This document shows, in pieces, positions 933 to 33,330 of a stretch of 36,618 nucleotides of DNA; position 1 is the first letter of the stretch; every line of letters begins with the position of its first letter. Under the pieces are notes generated by a model. It was given only the letters and a program-made list of their open reading frames with translations. It was not told the DNA's origin and did not search any database. Origin of the DNA: Planctomycetota bacterium (GTDB lineage: Bacteria; Planctomycetota; Planctomycetia; Planctomycetales; Planctomycetaceae); the NCBI GenBank assembly GCA_003670925.1, contig QWQG01000160.1, positions 1-36,618 of the forward strand. The letters run 5' to 3'. The translations under genes were made by a program, and so were the position numbers.

Positions 933-1009
933 CGTTTGTCGTCCCGGCTTTAGCCAGAATCTGTTGGCCACTCCTGCCGCGATTCCGCCTAAAGGCGGGA
1001 CTACGAACG
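933..1009. repeat. Imperfect inverted repeat (REP-like palindromic element)
   Basis: Two 23-nt arms (933-955 and 987-1009) are inverted copies matching at 19 of 23 positions, separated by 31 nt. Each arm also contains its own small palindrome: GGCTTTAGCC in the left arm and CCGCCTAAAGGCGG around the right arm. The element sits in the spacer between two convergent genes, so it may fold as an mRNA 3' hairpin for either gene. It has no T-run, so it is not a standard rho-independent terminator. From memory, similar CCGCCTAAAGGCGGGACTAC-type intergenic sequences recur in planctomycete genomes, but no second copy was seen in this window. Confidence 0.6.
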
Positions 1010-1031
1010 GAAACCTTTGCGGCATGGCGTG

Positions 1032-4699: not shown

Positions 4700-6118
4700 A
4701 TGCTGCGTGTCCTTGGTACAGCGAATCGTCTTTGCGACGGTATCACGCGCCGCGAAGTCATGCGTGTGGGCGGATTGTCGCTGTTTAGCGGGCTGAATTG
4801 GTCGCGTGTCGCACAAGCGGCAAATGCCGCTGTGACAAATCGCGGACCGGCTAAGTCTGTGATCATGTTCAATTTATTGGGCGGTCCGTCGCACATTGAC
4901 ATGTTCGATATGAAGCCGCAGGCGGCGTTGGAGATCCGGGGCGAGTTTTCTCCGATCGCGACATCAGTTCCCGGATTGACGATTTGCGAACACTTGCCGC
5001 GGCTCGCGCAGTGGATGCATCGTGGGACACTGATTCGCACCTTCAGTCACATGTTCAACTCACACGATCCGCTACCGTTCATGACAGGCTTTACGGACGG
5101 CAACCCAGCGGCTCAGGCCCTGCCCACTGATCCGCCGGACATCGGTGCTATTTGCCAATATCTAGGACTCGGTCCGAAAGACCTGCCGGGCGCTGTCTGC
5201 ATGCCGTGCTTTCCAGGTTCGGGTCAGAAGGGGCATCGACGTCGTGGTCCGTATGGGGGATTTCTCGGCAAGCGATATGACCCATTGTTCACGCTCTGCA
5301 AGCCCACGTTCGCGCGCGAGCCGAAATTTAATGACTACGATCCCGTGATGGCTATTGGTGAGCCTGTCCCACCGACAGCAGATGCGTTGGACGATATGAC
5401 GGTGGAGCGACTGGATCGGCGCCGTTCGCTGATCTCGCAGATTGACGGCGAATTCGCCCGCACGCAAGCATCCGCTGGCATTGATACGATGAGTGATGCT
5501 CAACGCCGAGCCTTCCTGCTGCTGACCTCTGGGCGGACCCGAGATGCATTTGACCTGAACTTGGAAACCGCCGCGACCCGCGATGCCTATGGTCGACATC
5601 TGCCCGGAGCAAGCCTGATCATTGCGCGTCGGTTGGTGGAATCGGGAGTGCCATTCGTCAGTGTGCATCAGGAAATATTTGATCACTATGGTCATGCATA
5701 CGATATGCATTCGAACAACTTCGGGATGCTGAAGAACCTGAACCTGCCGTTGCTCGACCAAGTCATTCCCGCTCTGTTGCAGGATCTTGATTCGCGCGGA
5801 CTATTGGATTCGACGCTGGTTGTCGTGATGGGAGAAATGGGGCGAACGCCGAAGGTGAATGCTTCGGCGGGACGCGACCACTGGCCGCAATGTGGCTTTA
5901 GTCTCTTGTTTGGCGGAGGCGTCAAGCAGGGTTTGGTTTATGGTTCGACGGATGCAATCGGTGCCTACCCGGACTCGCACCCCGTGTCTCCGGCAGACTT
6001 TGTGGCCACGGTCTATCAGTTGATGGGCATCGACCCTCATCTGACTGTACCCGACCGCAGTGGGCGTCCGATTTTTATTGCTCACGGCGGTGAGCCTGTG
6101 CATGAGATCATCGCGTGA
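4700..6118 (+). CDS. DUF1501 domain-containing protein (Tat-type leader)
   Basis: A 472-aa member of the planctomycete DUF1501 family, which has an alkaline-phosphatase/sulfatase-like fold. The N-terminus has a twin-arginine-like leader (ITRREVMRVGGLSLFSG, residues 15-31). Family signatures follow: VIMFNLLGGPSHIDMFDMKP near 55, LPRLAQWMHRGTLIRTFSH near 105, and LDSTLVVVMGEMGRTPKVN plus GRDHWPQCGFSLLFGGG near residues 370-410. The C-terminus GEPVHEIIA is the usual DUF1501 end. The function is unproven; the family is almost always beside a PSCyt/DUF1549/DUF1553 gene, as here (138 nt downstream). The ATG at 4700 has a purine-rich AAAGAGAA upstream. A second DUF1501 gene lies beyond the PSCyt gene. 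Confidence 0.93.
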   Translation: MLRVLGTANRLCDGITRREVMRVGGLSLFSGLNWSRVAQAANAAVTNRGPAKSVIMFNLLGGPSHIDMFDMKPQAALEIRGEFSPIATSVPGLTICEHLPRLAQWMHRGTLIRTFSHMFNSHDPLPFMTGFTDGNPAAQALPTDPPDIGAICQYLGLGPKDLPGAVCMPCFPGSGQKGHRRRGPYGGFLGKRYDPLFTLCKPTFAREPKFNDYDPVMAIGEPVPPTADALDDMTVERLDRRRSLISQIDGEFARTQASAGIDTMSDAQRRAFLLLTSGRTRDAFDLNLETAATRDAYGRHLPGASLIIARRLVESGVPFVSVHQEIFDHYGHAYDMHSNNFGMLKNLNLPLLDQVIPALLQDLDSRGLLDSTLVVVMGEMGRTPKVNASAGRDHWPQCGFSLLFGGGVKQGLVYGSTDAIGAYPDSHPVSPADFVATVYQLMGIDPHLTVPDRSGRPIFIAHGGEPVHEIIA

Positions 6119-6256
6119 ATTCTGATCAAATGTTAGGCTCATAGTCCATGCGGCTGAAAATAACCCTGTCGACCACGTGCTGCATCTCGGCCCCCGAAAT
6201 CAGCGAATCGGCATCACGATTCGATCCCATCTATTCGCAACAAGTGAGCTTCCGAC

Positions 6257-9200: not shown

Positions 9201-9640
9201 GCACACCCAATGAGAAGGCTGGATTTTTGGAAACTTTCGATGCGGCAAATCCCAACGAGTGCTATCGTCGGCAAGAAAGTGTTGTACCGCAACAGGCACT
9301 GGCGTTGATGAACAGTCGTCTGTCGCTGGATCAGGCTCGGCTTCTGGCTGGGAAACTTAGTGAGATCGCGGGTGAAGGGGACCATGCGTTCACAAGAGCA
9401 GCCTTCATCACAATTGCATTTGAAACCATTCTAAACAGAACACCGACGGCGATTGAAGTGGCCGCGTGTCAGACATTTTTGGAACGAAATACGGCGACGG
9501 CTGGTACCGCAGACCTCGCTGTTTTTTCTGCTGGAGGAGAGTCCTTACCGCGGGCACCTGCGACTGTTGCTTACCTGCGAGCTCGTGAGAATTTGGTTCA
9601 TGTGCTGTTGAGTCACAATGATTTTGTCACAATCCGCTGA
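6257..9640 (+). CDS. PSCyt1 / DUF1549 / LamG-like / DUF1553 planctomycete cytochrome protein
   Basis: A 1127-aa exported giant. A signal peptide (residues 1-23) precedes a PSCyt1 haem domain with a CAACH motif at residues 47-51 and a later SMRMPPEGQ, whose methionine is a plausible axial ligand. DUF1549 (PSCyt2) spans about 165-370 and includes [20 protein letters not shown], which carries a second CxxCH (CARCH). DUF1553 (PSD1) spans about 828 to the end, with the typical [20 protein letters not shown] and [17 protein letters not shown]. Between DUF1549 and DUF1553, two Ala/Glu-rich coiled-coil segments (about 458-513 and 688-812) bracket a LamG/DUF1080-like beta domain (about 514-683, beginning [15 protein letters not shown]). 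The family is thought to take part in surface polymer oxidation or uptake; the exact reaction is unknown. It lies between two DUF1501 genes. Confidence 0.93.
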
Positions 9641-9659
9641 TTTTTCAGAGAATTCCACA

Positions 9660-11153
9660 ATGGAAACAACGCCTTCAGGATCTTCGCGCGTGAAGTCTGC
9701 CGCCGAAATGAAATGCGGTCGCCGATATTTTCTCTCCGACATGGGAATGGGCTTCACGGGACTGGCACTTGGTTCCCTGTTGGCCCGTGACGGGATTGCA
9801 CGAACAGCCGAGGCCAGATCGAGGGTGATAGCAGATTCTACGATCGCGCATTTCGCCCCCAAGGCCAAGAGTGTTATCTGGTATTTTATGTTAGGCGGTA
9901 CAAGTCATCTTGAAAGTTTTGATCCCAAACCGGCTGTGGACAAGTATGCCGGACTCACGATCGATGAGTCACCATTTAAGTCATCCGTGCTGGACTCACC
10001 GTTCTATCGAAAAAACGTGCGCGATTTTGCGGGAACTCCACGAGCTCTGATGGCAAAGTTGTATCCTACGCAGGTGGGATTTCGAAGACGCGGCAACAGC
10101 GGCATTGAGGTCAGTGACTGGTGGCCACATGTGGGCGATTGCGTTGATGATCTTGCCATCGTGCGGTCCATGTGGACTACAGACAATGATCATGCGGCTC
10201 AGTTACAGTTTCACACAGGACGACACATCTTCGATGGCTTTCACCCGTCAATTGGATCATGGGTGCATTACGGCCTTGGCTCTCTCAATGATAACCTGCC
10301 GCAGTTTGTTGTGATGGGTGGAGGTCCGGGAGACTGCTGCGGGGGCGTGGGAGCCCACAGCGGCAGCTATCTTGGTCCGGAACACTCCGGAGTCAACATG
10401 GCCTTGGACCCGAATAACCCGCTACCGTTTGGAACGCCTGGTGCAAGCGTATCGATTGCTGAGCGTCGGGAACAACTGGATTTGCTCCATGAACTCAACG
10501 GTTTTGCTGAAATCCAATATCCCGATGATCCGGCCATGCGCGCCAGGATCAAAAGTTACGAACTTGCATTCCGCATGCAGATGTCAGTGCCGGAAGTCGT
10601 GCGAATTAGTGACGAAACCCTACAGACTCAGGAGTTGTACGGGCTGCACGAGCCTGCCACAGAGCGTGTCGGGCGCTTCAGTCTCACGGCACGTCGACTG
10701 GTGGAACGCGGTGTTCGCTTTGTGCAGATTTACGACGACGGTTGGGATGCCCATAGTGAACTATTAAAGAATCACTCCACGCGATGTAAGGCGGTGGATA
10801 AGCCAATCGCCGGTCTGCTGAAAGACCTGAAGCAAAGTGGTCTGCTGGACGAAACGCTGGTCGTCTGGGCGACGGAATTCGGGCGCACACCAGGTGCCGA
10901 ACGCTCCGACGGACGCGACCATCATCCTTATGGATTCTCGGTCTGGATGGCGGGTGGTGGATTGAAACGTGGCGTTGTGCATGGAGCGACAGATGAGATT
11001 GGATTTCACGCCGTCGATGATCGCCACTATGTCACGGACATCCATGCCACGCTCTTACATCAATTGGGGGTCGACTCTCGTCGTCTTGAATTTCCTGGAC
11101 AAAAAAGACTGGAGATCGATTTCGGCGCGCCGATCCAGGAGATCATTGCTTAA
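9660..11153 (+). CDS. DUF1501 domain-containing protein (second copy)
   Basis: A second, divergent DUF1501 protein, 497 aa from the ATG at 9660. A longer reading from the ATG at 9618 overlaps the PSCyt gene by 23 nt and cannot be excluded; 9660 leaves a 19-nt gap and has an AGAGA 8 nt upstream. A twin-arginine leader ([20 protein letters not shown]) follows. Family motifs are [20 protein letters not shown], the segment [39 protein letters not shown] and [17 protein letters not shown]; it ends APIQEIIA. The copy at 4700 differs clearly (HWPQCGFS versus HHPYGFS), so this is an old duplication or a separate lineage rather than a recent repeat. It is probably co-transcribed with the PSCyt gene. 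Confidence 0.92.
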
Positions 11154-13603: not shown

Positions 13604-14602
13604 TTATGGATTTTCGCGACTATCCAATCGGGTTCGAAGATCAGTGACTCGGTCATCGAGCTCGGTCAATGTCAGGGCGGCGAGTTGTTGTTCGCTGCTC
13701 TGCGGTTGATTCAGAAACTGTTCCAGTAAGCGAATCTGGCCAATACGACCGATTCGCAGTCCTTCTTCGCGTCCTTCTTCGCGTCCTTCTTCGCGTCCTT
13801 CTTCGCGTCCTTCTTCGCGTCCTTCTTCGCGTCCTTCTTCGCGTCCTTCTTCGCGTCCTTCTTCGCGTCCTGTCAGCATAGCCTCACGTCTGGCGGTCGA
13901 GATTTCCCATGCTTTGTCGCGAGCAGCGCGTTGCAAAGAATCGTGAATGTGGCGTTGGTTGGGAGTCTTTGAGATCATTTCAAGGATACCAATCATTTTT
14001 TGAAAGGGAGGTTCCGGGAGCACAGAACGCAATTTTTCAGCGTCGAGCTCTTCGGCTCGTTGAAACAGCCATGCCCACTTTTCGAGATGCGGACCGATCG
14101 GACCTTCGGCCAACCCGGCATTGTACTTTGGCAGCTCCACGGTGTGAATCTGAAAATGATCGGTAAATTGGATTCCATGTGGCAAGTTACTTAAGGTGAA
14201 TTTCAGGTGGCCTTGAGAAACTTCGGGAAACATAATCGACAACAGCAGGCAGATCCCTATGGTCGGTCGCAGGTCAGTGTACTCATCACCCTCGGACAGT
14301 TGGCTCGAACAAAGACAAGCGGCATAGTATATCAGCCGCTCGCGAAGTGCCGGAGTGACAGATTTCTGCATCTCCACATTGAGCAGCCTCCCGTCTGAAT
14401 CCCGAGCTTTAATATCCAGAATAGCTAGCTTATCGGTTTCGAATTCTTGCTCGATGAACGGGTTGAGGATCTCGACATTTACGATCGGCGACGGCAATTC
14501 TAGAATCGCATTGAGCAAGTGAATAAGCAAATCCGAATTCGCGGGATCCCCAAATGCAAGCCGAAACACGAAGTCGTTCGTTGGATCAATTCCTAGTCCC
14601 AT
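13604..14602 (-). CDS. Rpn-family / PD-(D/E)XK transposase-like nuclease with tandem REEG repeats
   Basis: A 332-aa protein of the Rpn (recombination-promoting nuclease, formerly 'transposase_31') group. The N-terminus DPTNDFVFRLAFGDPANSDL is diagnostic. The PD-(D/E)XK core is LDIKARDSDGRLLNVEMQ with Asp63, Glu77 and Gln79, the E-x-Q form common in this family. The middle (about 100-230) is the usual Rpn helical part. Nine exact REEG tetrapeptides follow, then a C-terminal segment (LRIGRIGQIRLLEQFL ... LAALTLTELDDRV) resembling DUF4351. The ATG at 14602 has GAGGAAA upstream. Related proteins cut DNA or promote RecA-independent recombination, and some are linked to defence; no terminal inverted repeats or target duplication were seen here, so this is a resident gene rather than a visible mobile element. 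Confidence 0.88.
   Translation of the reverse strand: MGLGIDPTNDFVFRLAFGDPANSDLLIHLLNAILELPSPIVNVEILNPFIEQEFETDKLAILDIKARDSDGRLLNVEMQKSVTPALRERLIYYAACLCSSQLSEGDEYTDLRPTIGICLLLSIMFPEVSQGHLKFTLSNLPHGIQFTDHFQIHTVELPKYNAGLAEGPIGPHLEKWAWLFQRAEELDAEKLRSVLPEPPFQKMIGILEMISKTPNQRHIHDSLQRAARDKAWEISTARREAMLTGREEGREEGREEGREEGREEGREEGREEGREEGREEGLRIGRIGQIRLLEQFLNQPQSSEQQLAALTLTELDDRVTDLRTRLDSRENP
13760..13870. repeat. 12-nt perfect tandem repeat inside the Rpn gene (about 9.25 copies)
   Basis: The unit TCCTTCTTCGCG (plus strand) is repeated without a mismatch across 111 nt. On the minus strand each unit encodes REEG, so gain or loss of units changes linker length by four residues without a frameshift. 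Exact identity between copies points to recent slippage expansion. Confidence 0.97.
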
Positions 14603-18800: not shown

Positions 18801-19898
18801 ATGAGATATTTCAAGTCCCTGAGTCTAATAATCGCCAGCGTCATCATGACGTGCAGCATTGTCTCGACTATCGTCGAAGCTGCGGTTGTCTCGTTTCGGG
18901 CCGACGATGCTGTTGGTAGAAACGCGGCCGTCGTCTCAGCTGCGTTTGGCCGGATGCCGGTGACGCAACTCAAAGATCGACTGCAGCATTGGCTGACACT
19001 TTCGCGTACAGATGAAGCCATCTCGACGCAGGCGATGGAACTTTGGTCTGACTACGCTCAGGTTGACGGACTGACTGCCGAACAGACGCTCGACCGTTTA
19101 ATTGATTCATTGGCGATCGCTGACAAGTCGGTGCAGCAGCTTGTCGATTCATGCCGCTCGACGGGGACCCGCAGGTCACTTGACTACGAAGGGACGCGTT
19201 CCGACGCGTTCTTCAGGGACCATGTGACTTTATATCACGCGCGCTGGTTGACACAGCATCGTTTTTATGACGAAGCTATTTTAATGTTGGAGGCGCTCAA
19301 TCCGGAAAACGTCGTTGATCCGGCTAGTCTGTTTTTCTATCGGGCAGTTTGCCGGCTGCGGTTGCTCAAGTCGGCAGATGCTGGCGATGACATCACGTTG
19401 CTGCTCAATCATACGTTAGATGTTCCATCGCGTTTTCGAGCGGTGGCTGAGATGATGAAGGAAGAAGCTCAAGTGGCGACGGAGGGGCTGTCGCAGGTAG
19501 CGCGACTCATGTCTGATGTGCAGCGTCGACTGGATCTGGGTAAGTCTGATGATCCCGTGCAGAAACGCGAAGACGAAGTGGTTGCTGCTCTGGACAAGTT
19601 GTTAGAGGAAATGGAACAGCAAAAACAAAAGCAGCAACAAGCTGCAGATGGAAATGGCGAGGGGCAGCAGAATCAGCAGAATCAGCCGGGTCAGCAAGGA
19701 GCAACTCAGGGTGCGATCAAAGGATCGGCGGCTGAAGGCGAAGCCGATCGCAAGGAGCTGAACGAGAGTGGGAACTGGGGGATGCTCGACAAACAGGCCG
19801 AAACCAAAGCACGAGAACTTATTCGACAACAGTTTCCCCCGAATTTCCTTGACGCCATCAGCCGTTATACTCGCCGCATCGCCGAACAGAAGAAGTAG
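18801..19898 (+). CDS. Exported hypothetical protein with Q-rich linker
   Basis: A 365-aa protein not recognised by name. A signal peptide (about residues 1-27) is followed by a helical, TPR-like region (about 45-215, e.g. HARWLTQHRFYDEAILMLEAL and FFYRAVCRLRLLKSADAGDD). A coiled-coil and Gln-rich stretch spans about 255-310 (EEMEQQKQKQQQAADGN and further Q/N/G). The C-terminal motif ELIRQQFPPNFLDAISRYTRR resembles ends seen in planctomycete proteins near MoxR/BatA-type or peptidase clusters; that is from memory and unproven. It is the first gene of the four-gene protease operon, 20 nt before the next gene, and may be its periplasmic adaptor or substrate. Confidence 0.75.
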   Translation: MRYFKSLSLIIASVIMTCSIVSTIVEAAVVSFRADDAVGRNAAVVSAAFGRMPVTQLKDRLQHWLTLSRTDEAISTQAMELWSDYAQVDGLTAEQTLDRLIDSLAIADKSVQQLVDSCRSTGTRRSLDYEGTRSDAFFRDHVTLYHARWLTQHRFYDEAILMLEALNPENVVDPASLFFYRAVCRLRLLKSADAGDDITLLLNHTLDVPSRFRAVAEMMKEEAQVATEGLSQVARLMSDVQRRLDLGKSDDPVQKREDEVVAALDKLLEEMEQQKQKQQQAADGNGEGQQNQQNQPGQQGATQGAIKGSAAEGEADRKELNESGNWGMLDKQAETKARELIRQQFPPNFLDAISRYTRRIAEQKK

Positions 19899-19918: not shown

Positions 19919-21163
19919 ATGCTCATCCTAACGCTTTTCGCAGTCCTGCTTGCGCCCTCTGACGCGAAAATCTCGATGCTGAACGGGCAGACACACGGCG
20001 GAGCACTGTCGGCCATTTCAGCGGCTGATGTTGAGATCACGGAAAACGGTGCGTTGTTCAAGTTGCCGCTTGAAGATGTCATGGCGATCGAATTTCCCCA
20101 GATCGCTCCAGTTGCCTCAGTTGAATCACAGATGCTGTTTTTTTTCGATGGGAGCCAGTTACATGGCAGCTCGATCGCGCGTACGGCAAAGTCGCTGACC
20201 GCCCAGACCGTCTTGTGCGGTGCCATTGACGCGAACGTCGATGCGATCCATGCGGTGAGGCTGCAGGCTGATAATCCTTCGTACACTCAACAGTGGAACA
20301 CATTTTTGAAACGCAATTCAGAAAAAGATAATCTCGTCGTGGCGAAGCGTGACGGCTCGGGACTCGATTTTCTGGCAGGGATTGTAAGTAAGGTAACCTC
20401 CGAGAATGTCGAATTTTTGTTGGATGGTGAAACGATTTCCGTGCCGGCTGAACGAGTCTACGGAATTGTGTTCGGTCGTCTACCAGGATCGCAGACAGGC
20501 ACAGCTGGGCCAGACGTTTCAATTCAGCTGACGAGCATCGCGGGTGATGTGTGCAACGCGAAAACAATGATCCTAGAAGGCGATCAATTGAAGGCTGAAT
20601 CCGCTTGGGGACAGATGGTGTCCGTTCCTTTCAATCAACTGCAGAAGATCGATCTCAGCAGCGGACGAATTCAATTCTTAGCCGAAATGCCGGCCTTGGT
20701 AGAACGCTTTGACGGGATCGATCCAGCAAACAGCCTTTTCGCCGGATTGATTCCCCCTGACCAGCAGAAATTATTGTTTGGGCCGCAGCGAAACATGACG
20801 ATCGAACGACAATCCAAATTGCGACTTCGGGGTCGTGAATTTGCCAGAGGGTTGTGTATCCATTCGCGTTCTGAACTGCAGTGGGAGCTTAAAAAACAAT
20901 TTTCAGCCATGGACTGCGTAGTCGGTGTCGATGACGAAGTGGCGTTCAATGGATCGCACGCGGTATTGTTGAAGATCATGGGCGACGACAATGTACTCTT
21001 CGAAAAACTGATCGCGACAAGTGACGATCCTTTGCCATTGCGATTAGCGTTGGATGGTGTGTCGAAGCTGACAATCCTTGTCGATTTTGGAGACGGAAGT
21101 AGCGTGTGCGACTGGCTGGACATTGCAGACGCACGCTTGGTAATTGCGAGGGAAAAGCCGTGA
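19919..21163 (+). CDS. Exported four-repeat beta protein with C-terminal NPCBM domain
   Basis: A 414-aa protein with a short signal peptide (about residues 1-16). Four related beta repeats of about 45-50 residues lie at 15-62, 69-117, 137-188 and 199-248. Each has a charged or polar opening, an 'L.G' turn, and a closing (V)xxI.FP/FG/RL/DL strand pair (e.g. LEDVMAIEFP, AERVYGIVFG, FNQLQKIDLS). Residues about 296-412 match an NPCBM (novel putative carbohydrate-binding module) domain: FARGLCIHSRSEL, FSAMDCVVGVDDEV, KLTILVDFGDG, CDWLDIADARLV. It overlaps the downstream protease start by 4 nt (GTGA), so translation is probably coupled. A carbohydrate-binding scaffold for the protease pair is my inference. 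Confidence 0.8.
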   Translation: MLILTLFAVLLAPSDAKISMLNGQTHGGALSAISAADVEITENGALFKLPLEDVMAIEFPQIAPVASVESQMLFFFDGSQLHGSSIARTAKSLTAQTVLCGAIDANVDAIHAVRLQADNPSYTQQWNTFLKRNSEKDNLVVAKRDGSGLDFLAGIVSKVTSENVEFLLDGETISVPAERVYGIVFGRLPGSQTGTAGPDVSIQLTSIAGDVCNAKTMILEGDQLKAESAWGQMVSVPFNQLQKIDLSSGRIQFLAEMPALVERFDGIDPANSLFAGLIPPDQQKLLFGPQRNMTIERQSKLRLRGREFARGLCIHSRSELQWELKKQFSAMDCVVGVDDEVAFNGSHAVLLKIMGDDNVLFEKLIATSDDPLPLRLALDGVSKLTILVDFGDGSSVCDWLDIADARLVIAREKP

Positions 21164-23055
21164 ATCATGTCAATGTTCGTCCTTTCTGGCAGAACGGACT
21201 TCCACTAAAGGCGGATCATTCCGCTCCGGCACGGGGAAATTATTGTGAGGTCATCCAGCCAAGTTCCTTGAGATCGCAGTTGGGCGCAAATTTCCGCCAG
21301 GCAAGTAAAATCAACTTGTGGCTGCAATTCATCCTGACCGCCCTCACAATGGCGGCCATCGCCGTTCCGACTGTTGCTCAACAAACCGTTGTTGAACGCG
21401 AAACGGCGCGCGTCGAAACACTGCGCAAAATTTCACCGAGCATCGTGTGTGTAATGGACCCGAAGGGCCAGGGTGGTGGTTCTGGCGTTCTCATTTCAGC
21501 GGATGGTTACGCCATCACGAACTACCACGTAACGTCGGGGTGCGGAACGTTTATGAAATGTGGTCTCAGTGACGGTAAGCTGTACGATGCGGTGATTGTT
21601 GGAATCGATCCCACGGGTGATATTGCGCTCATTCAGCTTCAGGGCCGCACGGATTTCTCGTTTGCAATCCCTGGAGACAGCGATCAGGTGCAAGTCGGTG
21701 ATGAAGTCATGGCACTCGGAAATCCGTTCCTGCTGGCAAGCGATTTTACTCCGACTGTCACATATGGAATCGTCAGCGGAGTGCGGCGTTATCAATACCC
21801 GGCCAACACGTTTCTGGAATATACCGATTGCATTCAGATTGATGCGTCAATCAATCCTGGAAATTCAGGCGGCCCGTTATTTGATATTGAAGGCCGTTGG
21901 ATCGGAATCAATGGCCGTGCGTCATTTGAAAAACGCGGGCGAGTTAACTCGGGAGCGGCATATGCCATTTCTGTGAATCAGATTCAGAAGTTTATCGGTC
22001 ATCTCAAGTGTGGTCTAATTGTGGATCACGGGGTTGCTGAATTTACCGTTGCAACATCGGACGCCGGTGAAGTCACGGTGGCTCAAGTGTCTGCCCTATC
22101 AGATGCGTATCGGCGAGGTCTGCGACCGGGTACCCAAGTGTTGTCATTTGCCGGGCGATTGTTGACGTCTGCCAATGATTTTCAGAACGTGCTGGGTATT
22201 TTTCCAGAAGGCACACGCCTGCCGCTGACATGGCGTGATCGTGACGGACTGCATGCAGGAACCATTCGTTTGCGTCCGCTGCATGCATTTCAGAAAGCAC
22301 CTGAGCTACCGGAAGAACGCCGGCAACGACCTCCGCAGGATCCAGAACAACAGGACAGCGAAGGGCACCTGCTCGACACAACTGCCGATGAAGTTCCGGA
22401 AGCACTCCAAAGCCTATTTGTGGCCCGCGACGGCTTCTGCAATTATTACTTCAACGAGATGCAAAGACTGCGTGTGCTCACTGCTCTGAAGGAACGCATG
22501 GCTTCCAACGGCGATCCAAAACCAGTGTGGGGCGTCACATTCACCTCTGATCCCGGATCGCAACTGGCGGGCGAACTCACAATTGCCGCATCTGCTGTGG
22601 GTATGAATCTAAATAACCGGCCATTCCTGCAGAGTACGACCGATCCGCAGATTGACGAAGAATCACCTCAATTGCCCGGTTTGCTCATCGCCATGAATCA
22701 AGTGCGCCGTCTGCTCAGCTGTGACGTGGCTGAGTTTACAGAACAGCAGGCTGCAGGTCGCACTTTTCATCTGCCGTTAAAAAAAGACGTGGATGTGTTG
22801 CTGACGCGTGAAGGTGTTCGCACGTGCCGGTGGTACTTTGACGAAAGCTCGCCACTGCCGGTTGCCGTCGATCTCGAATACGCACAGGGAATCGACGACG
22901 TACGCCTGTTGTTCGCTGACTGGGCGGATCGGAATGGAGTCGTATTTCCGGGGCGGATTGGACTGATCTCCGGCATCCAAGAAGACGTGCGATGGCTGAA
23001 CATCGACAACGTGACGGTCAACAAATCAGCAGCCCCTGAAAAGACAAAACCATGA
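21160..23055 (+). CDS. Membrane-anchored trypsin-like serine protease with PDZ domain (S1C/HtrA-like)
   Basis: A 631-aa protein from the GTG at 21160, which overlaps the previous stop (GTGA) and has GAGGGAAA just upstream; a longer frame from the ATG at 21106 is less likely. One N-terminal hydrophobic segment (about residues 52-74) is a signal anchor or long signal peptide, placing the enzyme in the periplasm. The trypsin-like triad is intact: His123 in NYHVTSG, Asp154 in DPTGDIALI and Ser236 in NPGNSGGPLFD. A PDZ-like domain follows (about 295-375, LSDAYRRGLRPGTQVLSFAG). Residues 400-631 form a domain I do not recognise. It is coupled by ATGA to a homologous gene that lacks the catalytic serine. 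Confidence 0.9.
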   Translation: MNHVNVRPFWQNGLPLKADHSAPARGNYCEVIQPSSLRSQLGANFRQASKINLWLQFILTALTMAAIAVPTVAQQTVVERETARVETLRKISPSIVCVMDPKGQGGGSGVLISADGYAITNYHVTSGCGTFMKCGLSDGKLYDAVIVGIDPTGDIALIQLQGRTDFSFAIPGDSDQVQVGDEVMALGNPFLLASDFTPTVTYGIVSGVRRYQYPANTFLEYTDCIQIDASINPGNSGGPLFDIEGRWIGINGRASFEKRGRVNSGAAYAISVNQIQKFIGHLKCGLIVDHGVAEFTVATSDAGEVTVAQVSALSDAYRRGLRPGTQVLSFAGRLLTSANDFQNVLGIFPEGTRLPLTWRDRDGLHAGTIRLRPLHAFQKAPELPEERRQRPPQDPEQQDSEGHLLDTTADEVPEALQSLFVARDGFCNYYFNEMQRLRVLTALKERMASNGDPKPVWGVTFTSDPGSQLAGELTIAASAVGMNLNNRPFLQSTTDPQIDEESPQLPGLLIAMNQVRRLLSCDVAEFTEQQAAGRTFHLPLKKDVDVLLTREGVRTCRWYFDESSPLPVAVDLEYAQGIDDVRLLFADWADRNGVVFPGRIGLISGIQEDVRWLNIDNVTVNKSAAPEKTKP

Positions 23056-24110
23056 GCATGTGTGTCACTCGTCCTTTCAAACGCGTATGCTGGAAGGCTC
23101 TGATTCTGACGCTGTTGTTCGCGTCCGATAGGTGCTGTGCGTCACAGTCAGACTTTCGGGCAACAGCCGAAGTCCTGAGGTCACAGCAGCAGACGATTGT
23201 CAAGTTGTTCGGTGCGGGAGGCGGCAGTCTAGATTCGTATGGAACAGGAACTTTGGTTTCGGGTGACGGGCATGTTGTAACGGTCTGGAATCATCTGATC
23301 AGTACCGGATATCTCACAGCGATTACAGCGGATGGTCGAAAATTTAGTGTCGATGTCGTCGGCACCAGTGCAGAGTATGATCTGGCACTCTTGAAACTCC
23401 GATCAGAACCCGGCGATTCATTCGCGCACATCGATCTGACTAAGGCAAGTAATCCCGATCCCGGGACGCCGGTACTTGCCTTCAGCAACATGTTTCACGT
23501 GGCGACAGGTAACGAGCCCGTATCGCTGGTGCATGGTGTCATCGCGGCGAAAATCCCCCTAGAAGCAACTCAAGGACGCTGGACGTTCCCGCTCAAATCC
23601 CCCGTCTGGCTGGTCGATGCCATTACGAACAATTCTGGTGCTGCCGGAGGCCTGCTGACTGACACCGCAGGTATCCCAATTGGCCTGATTGGTCGAGAAA
23701 TTCGGCATAGTGCCAGCCGCACATGGGTCAATTATGCGGTTCCGCTGACGACCCTGAAGCCCGTAATTGAAACACTGTTGTCCGGCAAGAAACTGGATTC
23801 AACTCCGAAAGACGCGGCCGCAAAAGTTCCCGTGATTTCTGATCAAGAGCTCACAGCACGTTTTGGTCTGACCATGTTGCCAAATGTCGTCGAACGAACT
23901 CCGGCATGGATCGATACTGTGGCAAAGAATTCAATCGCCGCGAAATGCGGCCTCCAACGCGGCGACCTGATTGTGTTGGTGAATGACGCCGTCATCACCA
24001 GCGTTACGGATTTTCAGCAGCAGATTGCCGCGTTTCGCAGCGGCGAACGAGTGGCGCTCACGATCAACCGCGACCAACAATTGCTGCCCCTAGATTTGCA
24101 GATTCCGTAA
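23052..24110 (+). CDS. Trypsin-like/PDZ pseudoprotease (catalytic Ser replaced by Ala)
   Basis: A 352-aa paralogue of the upstream protease. It has a signal peptide (about residues 1-30), a trypsin-like domain and a C-terminal PDZ (about 265-352, KCGLQRGDLIVLVNDAVI). His81 (VWNHLIS) and Asp110 (SAEYDLALL) are kept. The nucleophile loop reads NNSGAAGGLLTDTAG; aligned without gaps to the upstream INPGNSGGPLFDIEG, the catalytic serine is Ala198 (codon GCC), the preceding Asn is Ala and the Pro is Leu. A shifted serine (Ser195) exists but is out of register. The gene therefore probably encodes an inactive partner, regulator or adaptor. The start ATG overlaps the upstream TGA. Confidence 0.9.
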   Translation: MSMCVTRPFKRVCWKALILTLLFASDRCCASQSDFRATAEVLRSQQQTIVKLFGAGGGSLDSYGTGTLVSGDGHVVTVWNHLISTGYLTAITADGRKFSVDVVGTSAEYDLALLKLRSEPGDSFAHIDLTKASNPDPGTPVLAFSNMFHVATGNEPVSLVHGVIAAKIPLEATQGRWTFPLKSPVWLVDAITNNSGAAGGLLTDTAGIPIGLIGREIRHSASRTWVNYAVPLTTLKPVIETLLSGKKLDSTPKDAAAKVPVISDQELTARFGLTMLPNVVERTPAWIDTVAKNSIAAKCGLQRGDLIVLVNDAVITSVTDFQQQIAAFRSGERVALTINRDQQLLPLDLQIP

Positions 24111-24310: not shown

Positions 24311-25246
24311 TTATTCTTCGTATCGAATCTGACTCCAATCTTGCGACAGTCTGCATAGTTGATCAATGACGTCGATGTCTTCGCTGCACGCCACGATGCC
24401 GGGATAGCGGAGCATTCCGGCACGCGCGTCCATCCACAGATCACGATAATGCACAGGCTGGCGATTGTGGACCCAGACGGCGTCTCCGCCACGAACTCGC
24501 GCGATGTGCATCGCGACGGGAAAGTCATAAATGTTCGGCGAGTGAATAAGTGAACCAGTGTACTCACCTGTCGCCATGAACGGATAAATGCTGCCCGGCA
24601 TTTCGTCCGACGTGTGACCGGCCAGATTACGACCGCGAACAAGGAGTTGATCGACTTCACGCGCGCGTTCAATGTCGCGCTGCTGAAAGCCGATGAGATA
24701 GACTCCTGGACCGGTGTTTGTGCGCCGCGGCGTAAGATCCGGCAGCGCATCTAGCACATCTCGAGCCGTGTGTGATGGATCATCCGGACCGCAGACGATA
24801 CGTTCCGGAGTGACTTCGACCCATGTTCCATGTTCGCCCATTTCGGGGGCAAACACGAGTGAATAGTGCGGTGTTACATCGTCGTGGAGATGCACGATGA
24901 TGGAATAGCCATTGCCGGTTTTGTCGCGATACTGTTTCGTTCCGTCAATCGGATCAATCGAAATTGCGAGACGACTGTCCGTTGCAAAGTGGGCCATGTC
25001 GCCTGTCGTTTCTTCGCCTTCAATGCGACATGATCGCAGGACGGGGTCTGCATCTCGGAGTGCGGCAACCAGCAGTTCCTGGACCGACAGATCCGCGAGG
25101 GTCAAGGCATCGGTGTTGGCGTTCCCCGACGACTTGCCGTCCACCGCAATGTTAAACTGTCGGAGTCGTTTTGCCACAGCTCCGCTCCAGCGAACTACGG
25201 GAGGTAAAGCTTGTTGCAGAGCCTGAATGATTTGTGGGAGGTGCAT
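24311..25246 (-). CDS. Inositol-monophosphatase/CysQ-family phosphatase
   Basis: A 311-aa metal-dependent phosphatase of the inositol monophosphatase superfamily. EGEETTG (Glu78/Glu79) and SIDPIDGTKQYRD (Asp98, Asp101) are the two Mg-binding signatures; a later YDFPVAMHIARVRGGDAVW replaces the usual WDxAAG region and keeps an aspartate. The substrate could be 3'-phosphoadenosine phosphates (CysQ-like), inositol or sugar phosphates, or a cofactor intermediate; the sequence does not decide. It starts 5 nt after the ATP-grasp stop, so the two are co-transcribed and probably share a pathway with Mch. No strong ribosome site precedes the ATG at 25246, in keeping with coupling. Confidence 0.86.
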   Translation of the reverse strand: MHLPQIIQALQQALPPVVRWSGAVAKRLRQFNIAVDGKSSGNANTDALTLADLSVQELLVAALRDADPVLRSCRIEGEETTGDMAHFATDSRLAISIDPIDGTKQYRDKTGNGYSIIVHLHDDVTPHYSLVFAPEMGEHGTWVEVTPERIVCGPDDPSHTARDVLDALPDLTPRRTNTGPGVYLIGFQQRDIERAREVDQLLVRGRNLAGHTSDEMPGSIYPFMATGEYTGSLIHSPNIYDFPVAMHIARVRGGDAVWVHNRQPVHYRDLWMDARAGMLRYPGIVACSEDIDVIDQLCRLSQDWSQIRYEE

Positions 25247-25251
25247 TGTTT

Positions 25252-26130
25252 TTACTGCTTAAGTTCAAGCCATTCAAACAGACGCGTGGGAACGTTGTTG
25301 TCACAAGTCTTCTGCAAACCGCGCCAACCAGGCACGGCGTTTACTTCGATCACGAGCGGCTCATTGTCGGCGTTGTACATCAGATCGACGCCGGCAAACA
25401 GGCTGCCTGTGATCTTTGCAGCTTGGCAAGCCAATCCAAGTTCACGGTCGGTTGGAACGTGGGCGATGCCGGTGCCCTGTTGCGAAATGTTGGCGCGGAA
25501 ATCGCCGGGTTTCGGGATACGTTTCATCGATCCGACAAGCTGGTCATCGAGCAGCAGGACTCGAATATCAAAACATGGCCCGGAGACAAACGCCTGCAGG
25601 TACAGCACGGCCCCGAGACGTTCGAGTGTACGAAACGCCCGCAGCGCGAGTTCCGGATCTGAGACGCGCATGATGCCGCGCCCCTCGGCTCCAAACAGCG
25701 GCTTGACAACGACGTCTCGTCCGAGCCTCTCAAACGCTTCGAGGGCTGTGTCAGAATTTTCGCAAACGATCGTAGCGGGCACGGGAATTCCAGCGAGCGC
25801 GAGACGCTGTGTGGTCAGGTATTTGTCGACGGCACATTCTAAGGCACGTGGGGAATTGATGACACGCACGCCGCAGGCTTCGAGTCCTGCCAACATGTCC
25901 ATCCGTGCCACTACCTGTTCGAGTGATCCGGGCGGCATCGTCCGCACCAGCACCACATCTAGATTTCGCAGATCGCGATCGCCACACGAGAAGTCGACGC
26001 GGCCCGTCTGGACTTTGGCCACGAACTGATTGAACAGCAGTGAATGCATGACGTGTCTCCGCGCCGTGCCGACACGGCATAACTCATTCACATACCAACT
26101 GTCTTGATTTCCAAAGACACCAATTCGCAT
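25252..26130 (-). CDS. RimK-like ATP-grasp ligase, likely H4MPT-pathway
   Basis: A 292-aa ATP-grasp ligase of the RimK group, which joins glutamate or other amino acids to a carboxylate using ATP. Visible features are the N-terminal Rossmann-like start MRIGVFGNQDSWYVNEL, Lys103 (VDKYLTTQ), the P-loop-like VVVKPLFGAEGRGI (Lys143), and the Mg-binding VDLMYNADNEPLVIEVNAVPGWRG (Asp249, Glu262, Asn264). Related RimK-like genes lie beside mch in tetrahydromethanopterin gene clusters and include MptN, which adds glutamate to H4MPT; that parallel supports a cofactor-tailoring role, but it is an inference from position. The ATG at 26130 has GGAAG 9 nt upstream. The next gene follows after 5 nt. Confidence 0.85.
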   Translation of the reverse strand: MRIGVFGNQDSWYVNELCRVGTARRHVMHSLLFNQFVAKVQTGRVDFSCGDRDLRNLDVVLVRTMPPGSLEQVVARMDMLAGLEACGVRVINSPRALECAVDKYLTTQRLALAGIPVPATIVCENSDTALEAFERLGRDVVVKPLFGAEGRGIMRVSDPELALRAFRTLERLGAVLYLQAFVSGPCFDIRVLLLDDQLVGSMKRIPKPGDFRANISQQGTGIAHVPTDRELGLACQAAKITGSLFAGVDLMYNADNEPLVIEVNAVPGWRGLQKTCDNNVPTRLFEWLELKQ

Positions 26131-26234
26131 TGAGAGACTTCCATGGTGTGCCGGCGCGGCCGCTTGTCACAGCCAAAAAGATTCAGAAACTAGGCAGTCG
26201 TGATGGTGTGGCAGCGAGGACGCCGCGCACGTGA

Positions 26235-27209
26235 TTAAGCCATTCCGAACGACTCTCGCAGTAGTTCCGGGTAGAGCGTTCCGGACCGAAACGAACGCCC
26301 AGTCAGGAGATTATGAAACACGACAACCGCCGGGCTGAACAATGCCGCGTCCATCGCATAGAAATCATGATTCGCAGCTTTAAACAGTGAGAGAAATGTC
26401 TGGCCGTATGACGCCGAAGAATTCGATGGTACTTTTGCGACGACAGCTTCGATTACAGCATCGGGGCAACGCACCCACAGATTGACCGTGGCTCCGTACA
26501 GGATCGAATCGTTCGTGCGGCCTATGCCCTGCAGATCGTTCTTTGCCACCGGAGGCAAAGGTGCGATTCCGGTGCCGCTGATAATGTTTTCCAAGGGGAA
26601 CTGCAACTCGTGTAACTTGTGCAGAGCTGTTTCAAGCGACCGCGCCACGACTTGGATGTTGCCCGCCTGCGATGCTGTCGGAGACACGGCCAGTGTCAAG
26701 CGACATGCTGCGGGCAACGACTCCCGGATCAAGTCTAACGCGGCTTGCGTCGGCAGTGACCCTGATTCGAGTACTCCCACAGCCAATCCTCCGTCCTCTG
26801 TCTGCGGCAAATGCTGGAAGATGTCTTCTTTGCGTACGACGGCACGCATCGGGCCGGAACCCATCGCAAAGAAATCAGCGGAAGCTATTTTCCAGCCCGC
26901 ATACTGGCTCATCAGACACGCAGCAACCGGATGATCTGTCCGTACGAAAACCTGCGGCACGTCTGGTAGTCGTGAGTCTGACGGAGTAATTTCTACCTCC
27001 GCCATACCCGAGACGCAGATTCTTGCCAGCAGCACACCTGCTTCCAGACCACCTTCGGATGTGACGCCAAAGTCTAGAATCTGGATTCCACCCTGTTCGT
27101 GAATTCCAATTCTCAGACTCACTGCTTGAGACTTGGCAAGCTCCGTTAAATGGGTGGCACGCTGATTGAGGTTAAGAATGGACAACTCGAACGGCTCCTG
27201 AAAGCTCAC
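26235..27209 (-). CDS. mch: Methenyltetrahydromethanopterin cyclohydrolase
   Basis: A 324-aa Mch, which interconverts 5,10-methenyl- and 5-formyl-H4MPT in the tetrahydromethanopterin C1 pathway (formaldehyde oxidation in bacteria). Family segments are LDFGVTSEGGLEAGVLLARI, FVRTDHPVAACLMSQYAGW and ADFFAMGSGPMRAVV, with length typical of the family. As drawn the gene begins at GTG (27209) without a clear ribosome site; a TTG at 27185 has AGGAG about 9 nt upstream and may be the true start, shortening the protein by eight residues. The mch-ligase gap of 104 nt allows co-transcription. No fae, mtdB or formyltransferase gene is visible in the window, so the rest of the pathway must lie elsewhere. 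Confidence 0.93.
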   Translation of the reverse strand: MSFQEPFELSILNLNQRATHLTELAKSQAVSLRIGIHEQGGIQILDFGVTSEGGLEAGVLLARICVSGMAEVEITPSDSRLPDVPQVFVRTDHPVAACLMSQYAGWKIASADFFAMGSGPMRAVVRKEDIFQHLPQTEDGGLAVGVLESGSLPTQAALDLIRESLPAACRLTLAVSPTASQAGNIQVVARSLETALHKLHELQFPLENIISGTGIAPLPPVAKNDLQGIGRTNDSILYGATVNLWVRCPDAVIEAVVAKVPSNSSASYGQTFLSLFKAANHDFYAMDAALFSPAVVVFHNLLTGRSFRSGTLYPELLRESFGMA

Positions 27210-30220: not shown

Positions 30221-32242
30221 CTACATTCTTTGACCGGCAGCAGCCGGAACTGATACAACCGGGTGACGCACCTGTGTCAGCGTCGGAGCTACCTGAGCAG
30301 AGCCAGGGGCTGGTGCCAGCAAACGATCTTCCTGCGGCGTCCAACCTGACGACAATTGCACAACTGCGGAAATCGCCAAGGCCCAGATGGCGCCTAACTG
30401 TTCTGGAAATGGCAAACATGCAGACAGCATAACCCCGAGGAACAATGAGACAAGCGATGAAGAAATCCGAAATCGTGATTTGCGAAAACTGTCAGCCTGC
30501 CACCACCACCGCCGCATCAGGAACAGAGAGCCGAAAAACATCATGAATCCCGACATCGTCGGTAAACCATCTTCCAACATATGAATCTTCCCAATCGTTC
30601 CGGCATTAAAGACGCCGTCACCATTTGGCTGCAGGAGTGATGTTTGGTTGAGCATGAGGAACTGTCTCAGAACCGCCGCAATGGCTCCGACTCCTAAACC
30701 TAGACTCCCTTGGATCAGACGTCTCACAAGCGCATCGCCCTTACGCCCCTCCCAGACTTTGGCAGGCACAATTAACGCCCATGCCGCAACCAGCGTCACC
30801 GTTCCGAAGAATGCTACGTCGGCAGGATTCGGAAGCATGTCGGTTGCTAGATGCACGGCTGTTGTGACCAATCCCACTGCTGCTAGCGCCATAGTCAAAG
30901 ATGTCGTGATATCAGTCGCACGCTGCCCACCCAGAATTTGACGTATGGTTGCGGGAGTGGAATTGACCAGATAAACCGGGAATGATTGCGGAGCCGATGC
31001 CCGGGATCTCTGCGGAGCTACCACCACGGGCGAGTCCTGCATCGGCTGAAACATCAGCTGCGCAGGGATCGGCAAGTTTTCAGGGTAGGGCGACCGTGAC
31101 GGGGAGGTCACGACCTCAGCCACCTGGCGGGTGGACGACTTTCCAAAAAAGGAACGATAAATTAGATACGCGATCCCACCAATCACGCCGCCAGCCGTGA
31201 GCGGCCGGAACGCGCCAGATTGGACAATCACCCACAACACGGCACCGCTCAGCACCCACTTCACCGGCGGCGGAACTCGAGTATTCCAGAACTCCAATGC
31301 AGAATTCCACTGACCAGTCAGTCCACTTTCTGCATGCGGCGATTCCATGTGCGGATTGCCAAACAAGGATGTCTCAATTCTTCGCGCAGTCCCTTTTGTC
31401 AACGGCTTTGAGGCGTAAATGGGCGTTGGCTTCTCGGCCGCAAACCCCGATTCTTCAATCGCCTTACGAAAACGACGTTCTAACTCTTCCACTTCACTGA
31501 TCCGGCGATCTGGATTTTTTTCCAGCGCCGCCGCGAGCACAGGCCGCAATCTTTCAGGCAGCACCGACAAATCCGGTTCCGCCGTTAAATGCTTCATTAG
31601 AATTTCTGCAGTTGTTTCGCCTTCAAAAGGCACGTGTCCCGTGAGCATTTCGTACAAGATGATGCCTAGGGAATACACATCGACTTCGCGACCATAACGT
31701 CCGCGAGCGACCTCTGGCGCCATGTAGTAAACAGTTCCGACACTCTGCGTCTGCGCGCTGCGACGACTTTCAGAAATATACTTTGAGAGTCCCACATCAC
31801 CAATCTTCACTTGGTCTGCATCGCTGAACACATTCGCAGGTTTTAAGTCACGATGCACTAGCCCGCGATCGTGCAGAAAACTCAATCCCGCCGTCATCCC
31901 GTGCAGCCACCGGAAAACTTCATTTAGCGGTAAGCCGGTCGGATTCTCCTGTAGCACTTCGTACAGCCCCTTGCCGCCGACATACTCCATAATGATCCAA
32001 TGATCTTGGTCGGCATCCTGCCGCATATCAAAAATTGTAACCAGATTAGGATGCTTCAGATTTAAACACTGCGACACGCCACGCAGCTCAACTTCCAAAT
32101 TATTGTGCAGTAACTTCAAGGCAACTTCTTTACCGGCGTCGGTCAGCGCGTAGTACACTTCACCAAATCCACCGCGATGAATCGCGCGCTTAATGGTGTA
32201 ACCTTCCAGCGGTCTAGATTCCGGTGCAAGCGCAAATTTCAT
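30221..32242 (-). CDS. Polytopic membrane Ser/Thr protein kinase
   Basis: A 673-aa Hanks-type kinase from the ATG at 32242 (the longer frame begins at a TTG one base after the FHA stop). The catalytic domain covers about residues 14-265: Lys43 (VALKLL), HRDLKPANV with Asp132 and Asn137, DVG at 149-151 in place of DFG, and the APE motif at 175-177. In the glycine loop, IHRGGFGEV has His22 where the first glycine of GxGxxG is normal. After a Ser/Pro-rich linker, six to eight hydrophobic segments (about 325-655, e.g. KWVLSGAVLWVIVQSG, ALAAVGLVTTAVHLA, FMMFFGSLFLM) make a polytopic membrane part of unknown function. It is preceded by a tandem FHA gene, its likely phosphothreonine-reading partner. 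Confidence 0.92.
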   Translation of the reverse strand: MKFALAPESRPLEGYTIKRAIHRGGFGEVYYALTDAGKEVALKLLHNNLEVELRGVSQCLNLKHPNLVTIFDMRQDADQDHWIIMEYVGGKGLYEVLQENPTGLPLNEVFRWLHGMTAGLSFLHDRGLVHRDLKPANVFSDADQVKIGDVGLSKYISESRRSAQTQSVGTVYYMAPEVARGRYGREVDVYSLGIILYEMLTGHVPFEGETTAEILMKHLTAEPDLSVLPERLRPVLAAALEKNPDRRISEVEELERRFRKAIEESGFAAEKPTPIYASKPLTKGTARRIETSLFGNPHMESPHAESGLTGQWNSALEFWNTRVPPPVKWVLSGAVLWVIVQSGAFRPLTAGGVIGGIAYLIYRSFFGKSSTRQVAEVVTSPSRSPYPENLPIPAQLMFQPMQDSPVVVAPQRSRASAPQSFPVYLVNSTPATIRQILGGQRATDITTSLTMALAAVGLVTTAVHLATDMLPNPADVAFFGTVTLVAAWALIVPAKVWEGRKGDALVRRLIQGSLGLGVGAIAAVLRQFLMLNQTSLLQPNGDGVFNAGTIGKIHMLEDGLPTMSGFMMFFGSLFLMRRWWWQADSFRKSRFRISSSLVSLFLGVMLSACLPFPEQLGAIWALAISAVVQLSSGWTPQEDRLLAPAPGSAQVAPTLTQVRHPVVSVPAAAGQRM

Positions 32243-32303
32243 GACAATCTTTCGACTAAAACGTTTATCGGCGGTTAGCGCCGTTCCGCGAAAACGAATC
32301 AAC

Positions 32304-32903
32304 TCAAGACGTTTTTAGTTTCTCAATGCGAAACCGAAAGTCATCCCCGCAAACAATGGCACCGTCGCTCAGGATAGCGGAATCCCGAACACCTACTCCG
32401 TTGATGCTCAGTCCGGCTTTCGAGCGACACCGCAATCCACCCTCTTGGTGATAAATCACAATAAGTTCCGGCCAGTCCGGACAACACACATGATGATCTC
32501 GTCGTGGCCCCAAGAGAATACTGTCCGTCATCAGAATGATACCATTGACCGAGTGGGCTGGACGATGAGAACTTTCAAAATCTAGTAAAGCCGATCCAGC
32601 CAAGACGCTGGGAATGCGAAAAAGCAGTCGAACTCGTTCGGCCATACAGATTTCGTCGCCTGTCTGCAGCAATGTCGGTCCGGTGACTGCTCGACCAGAG
32701 ACAACGGTGGAGTTGTGTGGATGGATGAACCAATCTTCTCCATTTCGCAAAAGTGACGCATGACGGTGCGACAGGTTAGCCATCAAGCAGATGTCAGCAG
32801 ACTTGTCGTGCAGCTTTGGGCCGCCGATCAGAAACTGAGAACCTACGCACAATTGCCAAGCGCCCACTCCGTCAATCCACAACATGTAACGATCTGTCAG
32901 CAT
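32304..32903 (-). CDS. Tandem FHA-domain protein
   Basis: A 199-aa protein started at the ATG at 32903 (a TTG at 32915 is the alternative). The first FHA domain (about residues 25-95) has FLIGG, then LSHRHASLLRNGEDWFIHP and LLQTGDEICM, matching the phosphothreonine-binding G...S.xH pattern. The C-terminal half (about 130-195) repeats the later FHA pattern: ILLGPRRDHHVCC, LSINGVGVRDSAILSDGAIV and CGDDFRFRIEKL, although the S.xH signature is not obvious there. FHA domains bind phosphothreonine peptides, so it probably reads phosphorylation by the kinase encoded immediately downstream (62 nt gap to the kinase ATG). The second domain may have another partner or be structural. Confidence 0.83.
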   Translation of the reverse strand: MLTDRYMLWIDGVGAWQLCVGSQFLIGGPKLHDKSADICLMANLSHRHASLLRNGEDWFIHPHNSTVVSGRAVTGPTLLQTGDEICMAERVRLLFRIPSVLAGSALLDFESSHRPAHSVNGIILMTDSILLGPRRDHHVCCPDWPELIVIYHQEGGLRCRSKAGLSINGVGVRDSAILSDGAIVCGDDFRFRIEKLKTS

Positions 32904-33330
32904 AGACCACTTCAATTCTCTGCGTTCCGCTAAGTCCCGTCATCTCGCAATTTCTGCAAAAAACGGTGTCAACTGCAGGACGCCTATTGTAGAGCCTTCA
33001 GAGGCTGAAACCAGCGAGCAGCATGAAGGCCAGCACATCATTTTAAAAACAACCCAAGGGCTTGCCCGCCGAAGTGACGCTGGTCTTACCCTGCGCTCGC
33101 AAGAACTCGATTGATGCACATGAACGTGGTTCACCTTTCTCATGCTGAACAAAAAACTCCGGGCCCGAGTGAAGCTCGAACCCGGAGAGATGTGTGTCCC
33201 GGTCAAATTGCAGAAGTCACTTCCGCGTGATTGTTAAATTCTTGCCAGCGATCCCCCGCAACGTTCGTCCTGAGTTGTTGCAGTTAACCCGAGAGTTTGG
33301 GGCACTCGGCTCGCCGACTATGAATCTCGC
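32904..33330. other. Intergenic region with FHA promoter and upstream terminator
   Basis: This 427-nt region lies between the coiled-coil gene and the FHA-kinase genes, both on the minus strand. A rho-independent terminator occupies 33151-33187. The 246 nt between it and the FHA start must hold the FHA promoter, but I cannot assign clear -35/-10 hexamers. From 33188 to 33330 is the 3' untranslated part of the coiled-coil mRNA. Short frames here show no recognisable protein. Confidence 0.5.
33151..33187 (-). terminator. Rho-independent terminator of the coiled-coil gene
   Basis: On the minus strand the 31-nt hairpin (33187-33157) has stem halves CTCCGGG and CCCGGAG around an inner CGAG/CTCG pair; two adjacent U-G wobbles join these into a near-continuous 13-bp stem with a 5-nt loop. 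It is followed by six T residues (plus-strand A at 33151-33156). Confidence 0.88.

Follow-up and report, generated by a model that had tools for sequence, protein, structure and literature searches.

An active HtrA-type protease and two catalytically dead paralogues form a conserved gene set in planctomycetes

Many planctomycete genomes carry a set of three HtrA-family genes, here called A, B and C, of which A encodes a protein with a complete catalytic triad and B and C do not. The set is an active protease/pseudoprotease partnership of a new form, which is real, old and conserved, and larger than was first noted. It is marked by the loss of catalytic residues from B and C and their retention in A, by purifying selection on A and B, by co-inheritance and a recurrent gene order, and by fusions of A with B. 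This suggests that many planctomycetes keep a working envelope protease beside catalytically dead look-alikes, the whole forming a mixed protease machine whose dead members control, direct or help to assemble the live one.

The analysis started from a window of 36,618 nucleotides (the whole stretch of DNA analysed), in which the original prediction described A and B as an adjacent pair and proposed that B is a conserved inactive partner of an active relative. The A-B pair holds, as does the proposal; the further suggestion that B may serve as a substrate-binding or allosteric subunit of a hetero-oligomer is a possible reading of it. A third gene, C, and a cluster resembling MoxR/Bat operons, which lie outside the window, had been missed. 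We consider it probable (roughly 0.6) that A, B and C form one envelope HtrA system, with B and C as non-catalytic partners of A in a presumed common assembly.

Gene organisation in the window

The features are collected in Table 1. Direct reading confirms the coordinates, the strand and the four-nucleotide overlap of A and B. The GTG at 21160 overlaps the TGA of the preceding NPCBM gene (GTGA), and on this basis it is taken as the start of A; a later start is possible, because a hydrophobic, export-like segment is found some 50 residues into the sequence. Residues of A are numbered here from 21163, as His122/Asp153/Ser235. Counted from the GTG at 21160 they are His123/Asp154/Ser236.

Table 1 Features of the A-B locus, in positions of the window.
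Feature	Position	Strand	Description
u2, upstream of the NPCBM gene	18801..19898	+	No Pfam match; homologue in 16/16 distant loci
NPCBM-domain protein, directly upstream of A	19919..21163	+	NPCBM E 1.6e-22
Gene A, HtrA/Deg-type serine protease	21160..23055	+	Trypsin-like domain, one PDZ, C-terminal β-rich domain
A catalytic His codon (His122, counted from 21163)	21526..21528	+	
A catalytic Asp codon (Asp153, counted from 21163)	21619..21621	+	
A catalytic Ser codon (Ser235, counted from 21163)	21865..21867	+	
ATGA stop/start overlap of A and B	23052..23055	+	B ATG at 23052; A stop TGA at 23053-23055; direct reading
Gene B, HtrA-type pseudoprotease	23052..24110	+	Signal-like N-terminus, trypsin-like domain, one PDZ
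B His81 codon	23292..23294	+	
B Asp110 codon	23379..23381	+	
B Ala198 codon (GCC), nucleophile position	23643..23645	+	

Elsewhere in the window, two DUF1501 genes flank a PSCyt1/PSCyt2/PSD1 gene (4700-11153), a pairing typical of planctomycetes. The minus strand carries a PD-(D/E)XK family transposase-like gene (13604-14602), adjoining genes for a methenyl-H4MPT cyclohydrolase (MCH), a RimK-like ATP-grasp protein and an inositol-phosphatase-like protein (24311-27209), and a protein kinase gene next to an FHA-domain gene (30221-32915).

The active protease A

The description of A and B as two trypsin-like PDZ proteins is borne out, by different routes for the two PDZ domains. Pfam identifies Trypsin_2 in A (E 5.7e-30) and no PDZ; the PDZ domain of A is found by alignment to a DegP profile (5e-50), which spans the protease domain and PDZ1. 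In B, Pfam finds both Trypsin_2 (E 3.9e-14) and PDZ_6 (E 4.4e-10). The structure model of A has a pLDDT of 78.7, and a fold search with it gave DegP as the top match, all 50 matches listed being of HtrA type. The model also contains an extra β-rich domain at about residues 413-620 (window 22399-23022), mostly predicted with high confidence. This domain has no Pfam family in the window's A, and a search of five A sequences at E values up to 1 gave a single weak match in two of them (DUF6287, DUF4292).

The catalytic triad of A is intact, as predicted, and is invariant in an alignment of 32 sequences. The nucleophile serine is present in 102/102 A proteins, 62 from one set and 40 from the distant loci described below. 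In the set of 62, the 34 that reach the histidine position all have His, Asp and Ser (HDS), and the other 28 are cut by the end of the locus. Among the 40 distant loci, where A keeps its serine beside B in every case, 39 have the whole triad; the exception is L176, whose N-terminal part is damaged or misaligned. With a triad and at least one PDZ domain, A belongs to the HtrA/Deg serine proteases.

The pseudoproteases B and C

The histidine, aspartate and alanine assigned to B in the original prediction (His81, Asp110 and Ala198) were read correctly. In a profile alignment to the solved wild-type DegQ, the B sequence NNSGAAGG sits on INPGNSGG, which places Ala198 in the nucleophile column. As this alignment is independent of the ungapped one used originally, the column is real and a misaligned loop is ruled out. 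The structure model of B has a pLDDT of 81.5 and a pTM of 0.59, so that the placement of its domains is uncertain; its best matches in the PDB are DegQ, DegP and DegS, with Deg1 also among the first matches.

Serine at this position in orthologues of B was named at the outset as the observation that would speak for a strain-specific decay. It occurs in none of 170 B proteins, taken one per genome with the window included (0/70, 0/40 and 0/60 in three sets). These represent 131 genomes of the window's family (130 plus G004) and 39 from outside it. The set of 40 distant loci comprises these 39 and the G004 locus; it was picked as the best matches to B, and represents 39 of the 51 genomes beyond the family that have B. 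A separate scan of 80 loci (the best 80 of 323 relatives, in genomes partly overlapping the other sets) also gave no serine, but its search pattern demanded a non-serine loop, and it is therefore left out as a test of serine absence and used for adjacency, alignments and dN/dS. Several bins in the sample (L180, L205, L211, L218, L223) are titled Candidatus Kuenenia stuttgartiensis; their contigs match the window's family, and they are probably mislabelled.

The His, Asp and nucleophile positions of the 70-member set read HDA in 46 proteins, HDG in 14, HAA in three, HDT, HEA and PDA in two each, and HDE in one; in the 60-member set the nucleophile position is A in 41, G in 18 and L in one. Histidine is kept in 68/70 and 51/60 of these family members. 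In the distant set the nucleophile position is occupied by A, G, T, P, D, Q, E, Y or F, with histidine kept in just 4/40 and aspartate in 6/40. The dead site of B is thus not uniform: the statement that B has lost only its nucleophile holds for most of the window's family and fails for the distant set. Around the dead loop, Asp189, Thr192, Asn193, Asn194, Gly196, Gly199 and Gly200 are invariant, which suggests that the shape of the loop is still in use. B is found in 160/170 genomes of the window's family (E <= 1e-20) and in 128/130 of the good ones, although one match, in G123 (5.5e-22), is probably another HtrA.

The third gene, C, encodes a Trypsin_2 domain and two PDZ domains, followed in some members by an α/β-hydrolase-like C-terminal part. 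All 64 C proteins compared have Tyr at the nucleophile position, and all lack the first Gly of the oxyanion loop. The His position is occupied by F in 51, Y in six, W in four and otherwise by E, V or L, and the Asp position by M in 30, G in 13, K in seven, R and N in five each, Q in three and A in one. C occurs in 160/170 genomes of the window's family and 129/130 of the good ones; in the window's own genome it lies on another contig (G000:C78), with 44% identity. B and C share the HtrA/Deg order of a trypsin-like domain followed by PDZ, for B also in the structure model, and neither has the triad (Ser 0/170 in B; Ser, His and Asp each 0/64 in C).

Selection and ancestry

The comparison of dN/dS proposed for the two genes was made by the Nei-Gojobori method, for the window against relatives and for two pairs of relatives; three comparisons with saturated dS gave no value. 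The ratio is 0.047-0.139 for B, which indicates purifying selection, and 0.076-0.168 for A. In a tree of 169 sequences, a chosen subset of 55 A, 55 B, 53 C and six other HtrA proteins (these last few in number and all planctomycete), the four groups form one clade each, with support of 99, 98, 99 and 97, respectively.

Linkage of A, B and C

Conserved pairing was the other check proposed, and A and B pass it. Among the best 80 of 323 relatives, 73 loci have at least 2.5 kb of upstream DNA, and 68 of these have A immediately upstream of B in the same orientation. In four of the five exceptions (L186, L210, L227, L229) the genes are unlinked, and in L234 they are 1.6 kb apart. Five of the genomes in which B is unlinked (G119, G083, G091, G002, G006) were tested, and all have A elsewhere. 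The 68 adjacent pairs overlap by ATGA in 23 cases, by the same four bases with another start in six and by one base in four; of the rest, 19 have another start nearby and 16 have none near. In the distant loci, the two genes either adjoin or share a frame in 40/40.

The two genes are also inherited together. Among the matches listed for 391 sampled Planctomycetota genomes, both A and B occur in 86, only B in one and only A in one, the cut-offs being placed where the scores show a gap: at least 150 bits for B (87 genomes; next match 114 bits) and at least 275 bits for A (87 genomes). For A the margin is small: the next match scores 265 bits (a second HtrA of G208), and genomes lacking A reach at most 256 bits. 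The B-only genome (G480) has a low-scoring piece of A (235 bits) beside B. In the A-only genome (G282), A occupies 854-1732 (minus strand) close to a contig end, where a B behind it would be lost. Three of 25 genomes of the same class are without both A and B, and no clear A or B is present in two fragmented drafts (G123, G124).

In six of the 40 distant loci, A and B form a single frame (L163, L165, L166, L174, L176, L179), in five families. Four of these fusions (L163, L165, L166, L174) begin with a clear export-like segment; L179 has an uncertain start, and L176 is a doubtful case. Over the 130 residues that precede B, the maximum 15-residue hydropathy is 0.65-1.6 in the fusions, and the two highest (L165, L174) have their peak some 100 residues ahead of B. 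For nine unfused B proteins, the corresponding value for the stretch before the domain is 1.3-2.5 in seven and negative in two, so that the fused and unfused ranges overlap slightly. From their places in the tree, the fusions look like several separate events. Taken together, the fusions and the co-occurrence of the genes support a functional, and probably physical, partnership. The stop/start overlap and the fusions would fit the production of A and B in equal amounts.

Of the family loci (again among the best 80 of 323 relatives), 64 extend at least 2.5 kb downstream, and C comes directly after B in 34 of them; the 30 loci without C next to B include many close to the window. In the distant loci C is beside B in 38/40; L163 stops at the contig end, and L176 is without C. 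Since A and B are unlinked in 4/73 loci and C does not adjoin B in 30/64, joint translation is not essential.

The surrounding gene cluster

The set stands at the end of a longer cluster, seen in full in G149 as an 11-gene order: MoxR, DUF58, BatA/vWA, genes for proteins of 867, 841 and 624 residues, u2, NPCBM, A, B and C. The stretch u2, NPCBM, A, B has the same order in G089, G096 and G014, and the NPCBM gene is upstream of A in L086, L088, L089 and L090. In 16 distant genomes, chosen for their long contigs, genes found in the same order are u2 and the 624-residue gene (16 each), the 867-residue gene (15), the 841-residue gene and NPCBM (14 each), BatA (13), DUF58 (8) and MoxR (7), several of the loci ending before MoxR. 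In three of the 16 (L336, L341, L342), some upstream genes of the cluster were not found, though the DNA is present. The cluster order thus recurs in families other than the window's. In L106, Pfam identifies MoxR, DUF58 and a BatA-type vWA protein in order, as in a Bat/MoxR-vWA operon. The window does not have this arrangement, as the cluster is split in its genome: u2-NPCBM-A-B lies behind recG, the 841-residue gene is on C258 and the 867-residue gene on C207.

Comparison with known systems

We found no description of a planctomycete A-B-C system in the open-licence literature of PubMed Central, in agreement with the original statement that no planctomycete system of this form is described, and no paper there joining planctomycetes, MoxR, vWA and a serine protease. 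The three proteins resemble DegP, DegQ and DegS in fold, in the order of protease and PDZ domains, and in their probable envelope location. DegP, DegQ and DegS are homo-oligomers in which all subunits are active, whereas two of the three planctomycete paralogues have no triad. The cluster resembles Bat/MoxR-vWA operons in having MoxR, DUF58 and a BatA-type vWA gene in a row, and differs in its additional NPCBM gene and three HtrA-type genes; to our knowledge, no Bat operon with these has been described.

The nearest precedents are MamE/MamO, which is closest in fold and logic, and CspB/CspA/CspC, which is closest in layout. MamO is an HtrA-family pseudoprotease of magnetosomes, genetically linked to the active HtrA-family protease MamE much as B is to A; it promotes the activity of MamE without catalysis, and physical interaction was not detected in the experiments described (PMC4794232). 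MamO differs from B in having Thr at the nucleophile position, a TauE-like transporter domain and metal binding (PMC4794232), and the planctomycete set differs in the PDZ domain of B, the second pseudoprotease C and the MoxR/Bat-like context. Scores against the NCBIfam models are far below the cut-off of 800 bits, at 119.5 for A against MamE and 40.3 for B against MamO. In Clostridioides difficile, CspB, CspA and CspC are one active protease and two pseudoproteases, which the authors conclude to be regulators of germination, and CspBA, like the A-B fusions, places an active and a pseudoprotease in one chain (PMC6464247). CspC is called subtilisin-like (PMC4619724), however, and the Csp proteins act in spore germination in Firmicutes. 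A and B are of the trypsin/HtrA type and do not have a subtilisin-type fold, so that the likeness is one of analogy only.

Two further systems share single features with the set. PflC of the Campylobacter flagellar motor is a structural disk protein with an HtrA fold and a lost triad, as in B and C; it differs in that no active HtrA partner in the disk is described in the part of the paper available (PMC12222027). Deg5/Deg8 of Arabidopsis is given in a 2016 review as the sole known Deg hetero-oligomer, and the same review mentions inactive Deg proteins in two cyanobacteria (PMC4877387). Deg5/Deg8 resembles A/B/C as an HtrA-family hetero-oligomer, which A/B/C would presumably be; unlike B and C, both of its members have a catalytic triad, and it acts in photosystem II turnover (PMC4877387). 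A survey of PDZ domains reports many PDZ proteins in planctomycetes, and its main text does not contain the words inactive or catalytic (PMC6411480).

Proposed function

On the basis of these observations, we propose that the three proteins are HtrA-family paralogues of ancient origin which, judging from their signal-like N-termini, are probably exported to the planctomycete cell envelope. A would be the sole peptidase of the set. B, without Ser at the nucleophile position, and C, with Tyr there and with His and Asp also lost, would act as its non-catalytic partners. HtrA proteins such as DegP and DegS function as trimers, which makes mixed A/B/C assemblies plausible: B and C probably co-assemble with A, either replacing the usual HtrA homotrimer or with trimers arranged in layers. 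B and C may use their PDZ domains and inactive clefts both for capturing substrates or peptides and for setting the activity of A. Because the set ends a MoxR/DUF58/vWA (Bat-like) cluster, the module probably serves the maturation or quality control of envelope proteins, presumably together with the AAA+/vWA system. A stronger version is that the MoxR AAA+/vWA (Bat-like) system builds or drives, widely in the envelopes of Planctomycetota, an HtrA hetero-oligomer of one live subunit and two that are obligately dead, the dead ones sensing and controlling, all encoded by one ancestral 11-gene cluster; we regard this as a tentative idea.

It may be instead that B and C have non-catalytic jobs of their own, such as peptide or ligand sensing, chaperoning or metal binding, and affect A indirectly. 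MamO would be the model, since it activates MamE without catalysis and binds metal, with no interaction detected in the experiments described (PMC4794232). The retention of PDZ domains in B and C, the α/β-hydrolase-like part of some C proteins and the unlinked genes of some genomes point the same way. However, independent jobs sit poorly with A and B being one chain in several lineages and with their close co-occurrence, and we think this reading rather unlikely. A role for B and C as HtrA-fold scaffolds, making the complex a part of the MoxR/Bat envelope apparatus and not a regulated protease, is less likely again. It has a parallel in PflC, a triad-less HtrA fold that forms a disk lattice (PMC12222027), and the cluster does encode vWA and NPCBM proteins; but B is paired with an A that keeps Ser in all 40 distant loci (the whole triad in 39), and the fusions seen join B to A and never to structural genes. 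That B or C has some other catalytic activity through a different residue seems highly improbable: the Tyr of C is invariant (64/64), but it stands in a site without His, Asp or the first oxyanion-loop Gly, and no single new chemistry fits B, where the residue may be A, G, T, P, Q, E, Y, F, D or L. Explanations by recent decay, or by sequencing error, in a single strain have next to no chance of being right, given Ser in 0/170 B proteins, a dN/dS of around 0.1 and open frames across the phylum.

The preferred reading, of B and C as non-catalytic partners of A, describes a widely kept and old bacterial set of one active and two dead HtrA paralogues, joined as live-dead chains in some lineages and linked through its cluster to an AAA+ system of the MoxR/Bat-like kind, the role of which is itself little understood. 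Three questions become testable: whether HtrA can form a hetero-oligomer of live and dead subunits, what purpose kept but dead protease clefts serve, and what job MoxR/vWA clusters have in planctomycete envelopes. It also carries a caution for annotation, in that planctomycete genes matching trypsin-like peptidase models need not encode peptidases.

The window's genome contains one further HtrA-like chain (L006:1150-3255, on G000:C237), in which Trypsin_2 and PDZ each match twice. Its first site appears active (GDSGGP), and near the end of the sequence examined there is a second, loop-like RQVGGP without Ser. This chain is a possible separate live-dead pair within one polypeptide.
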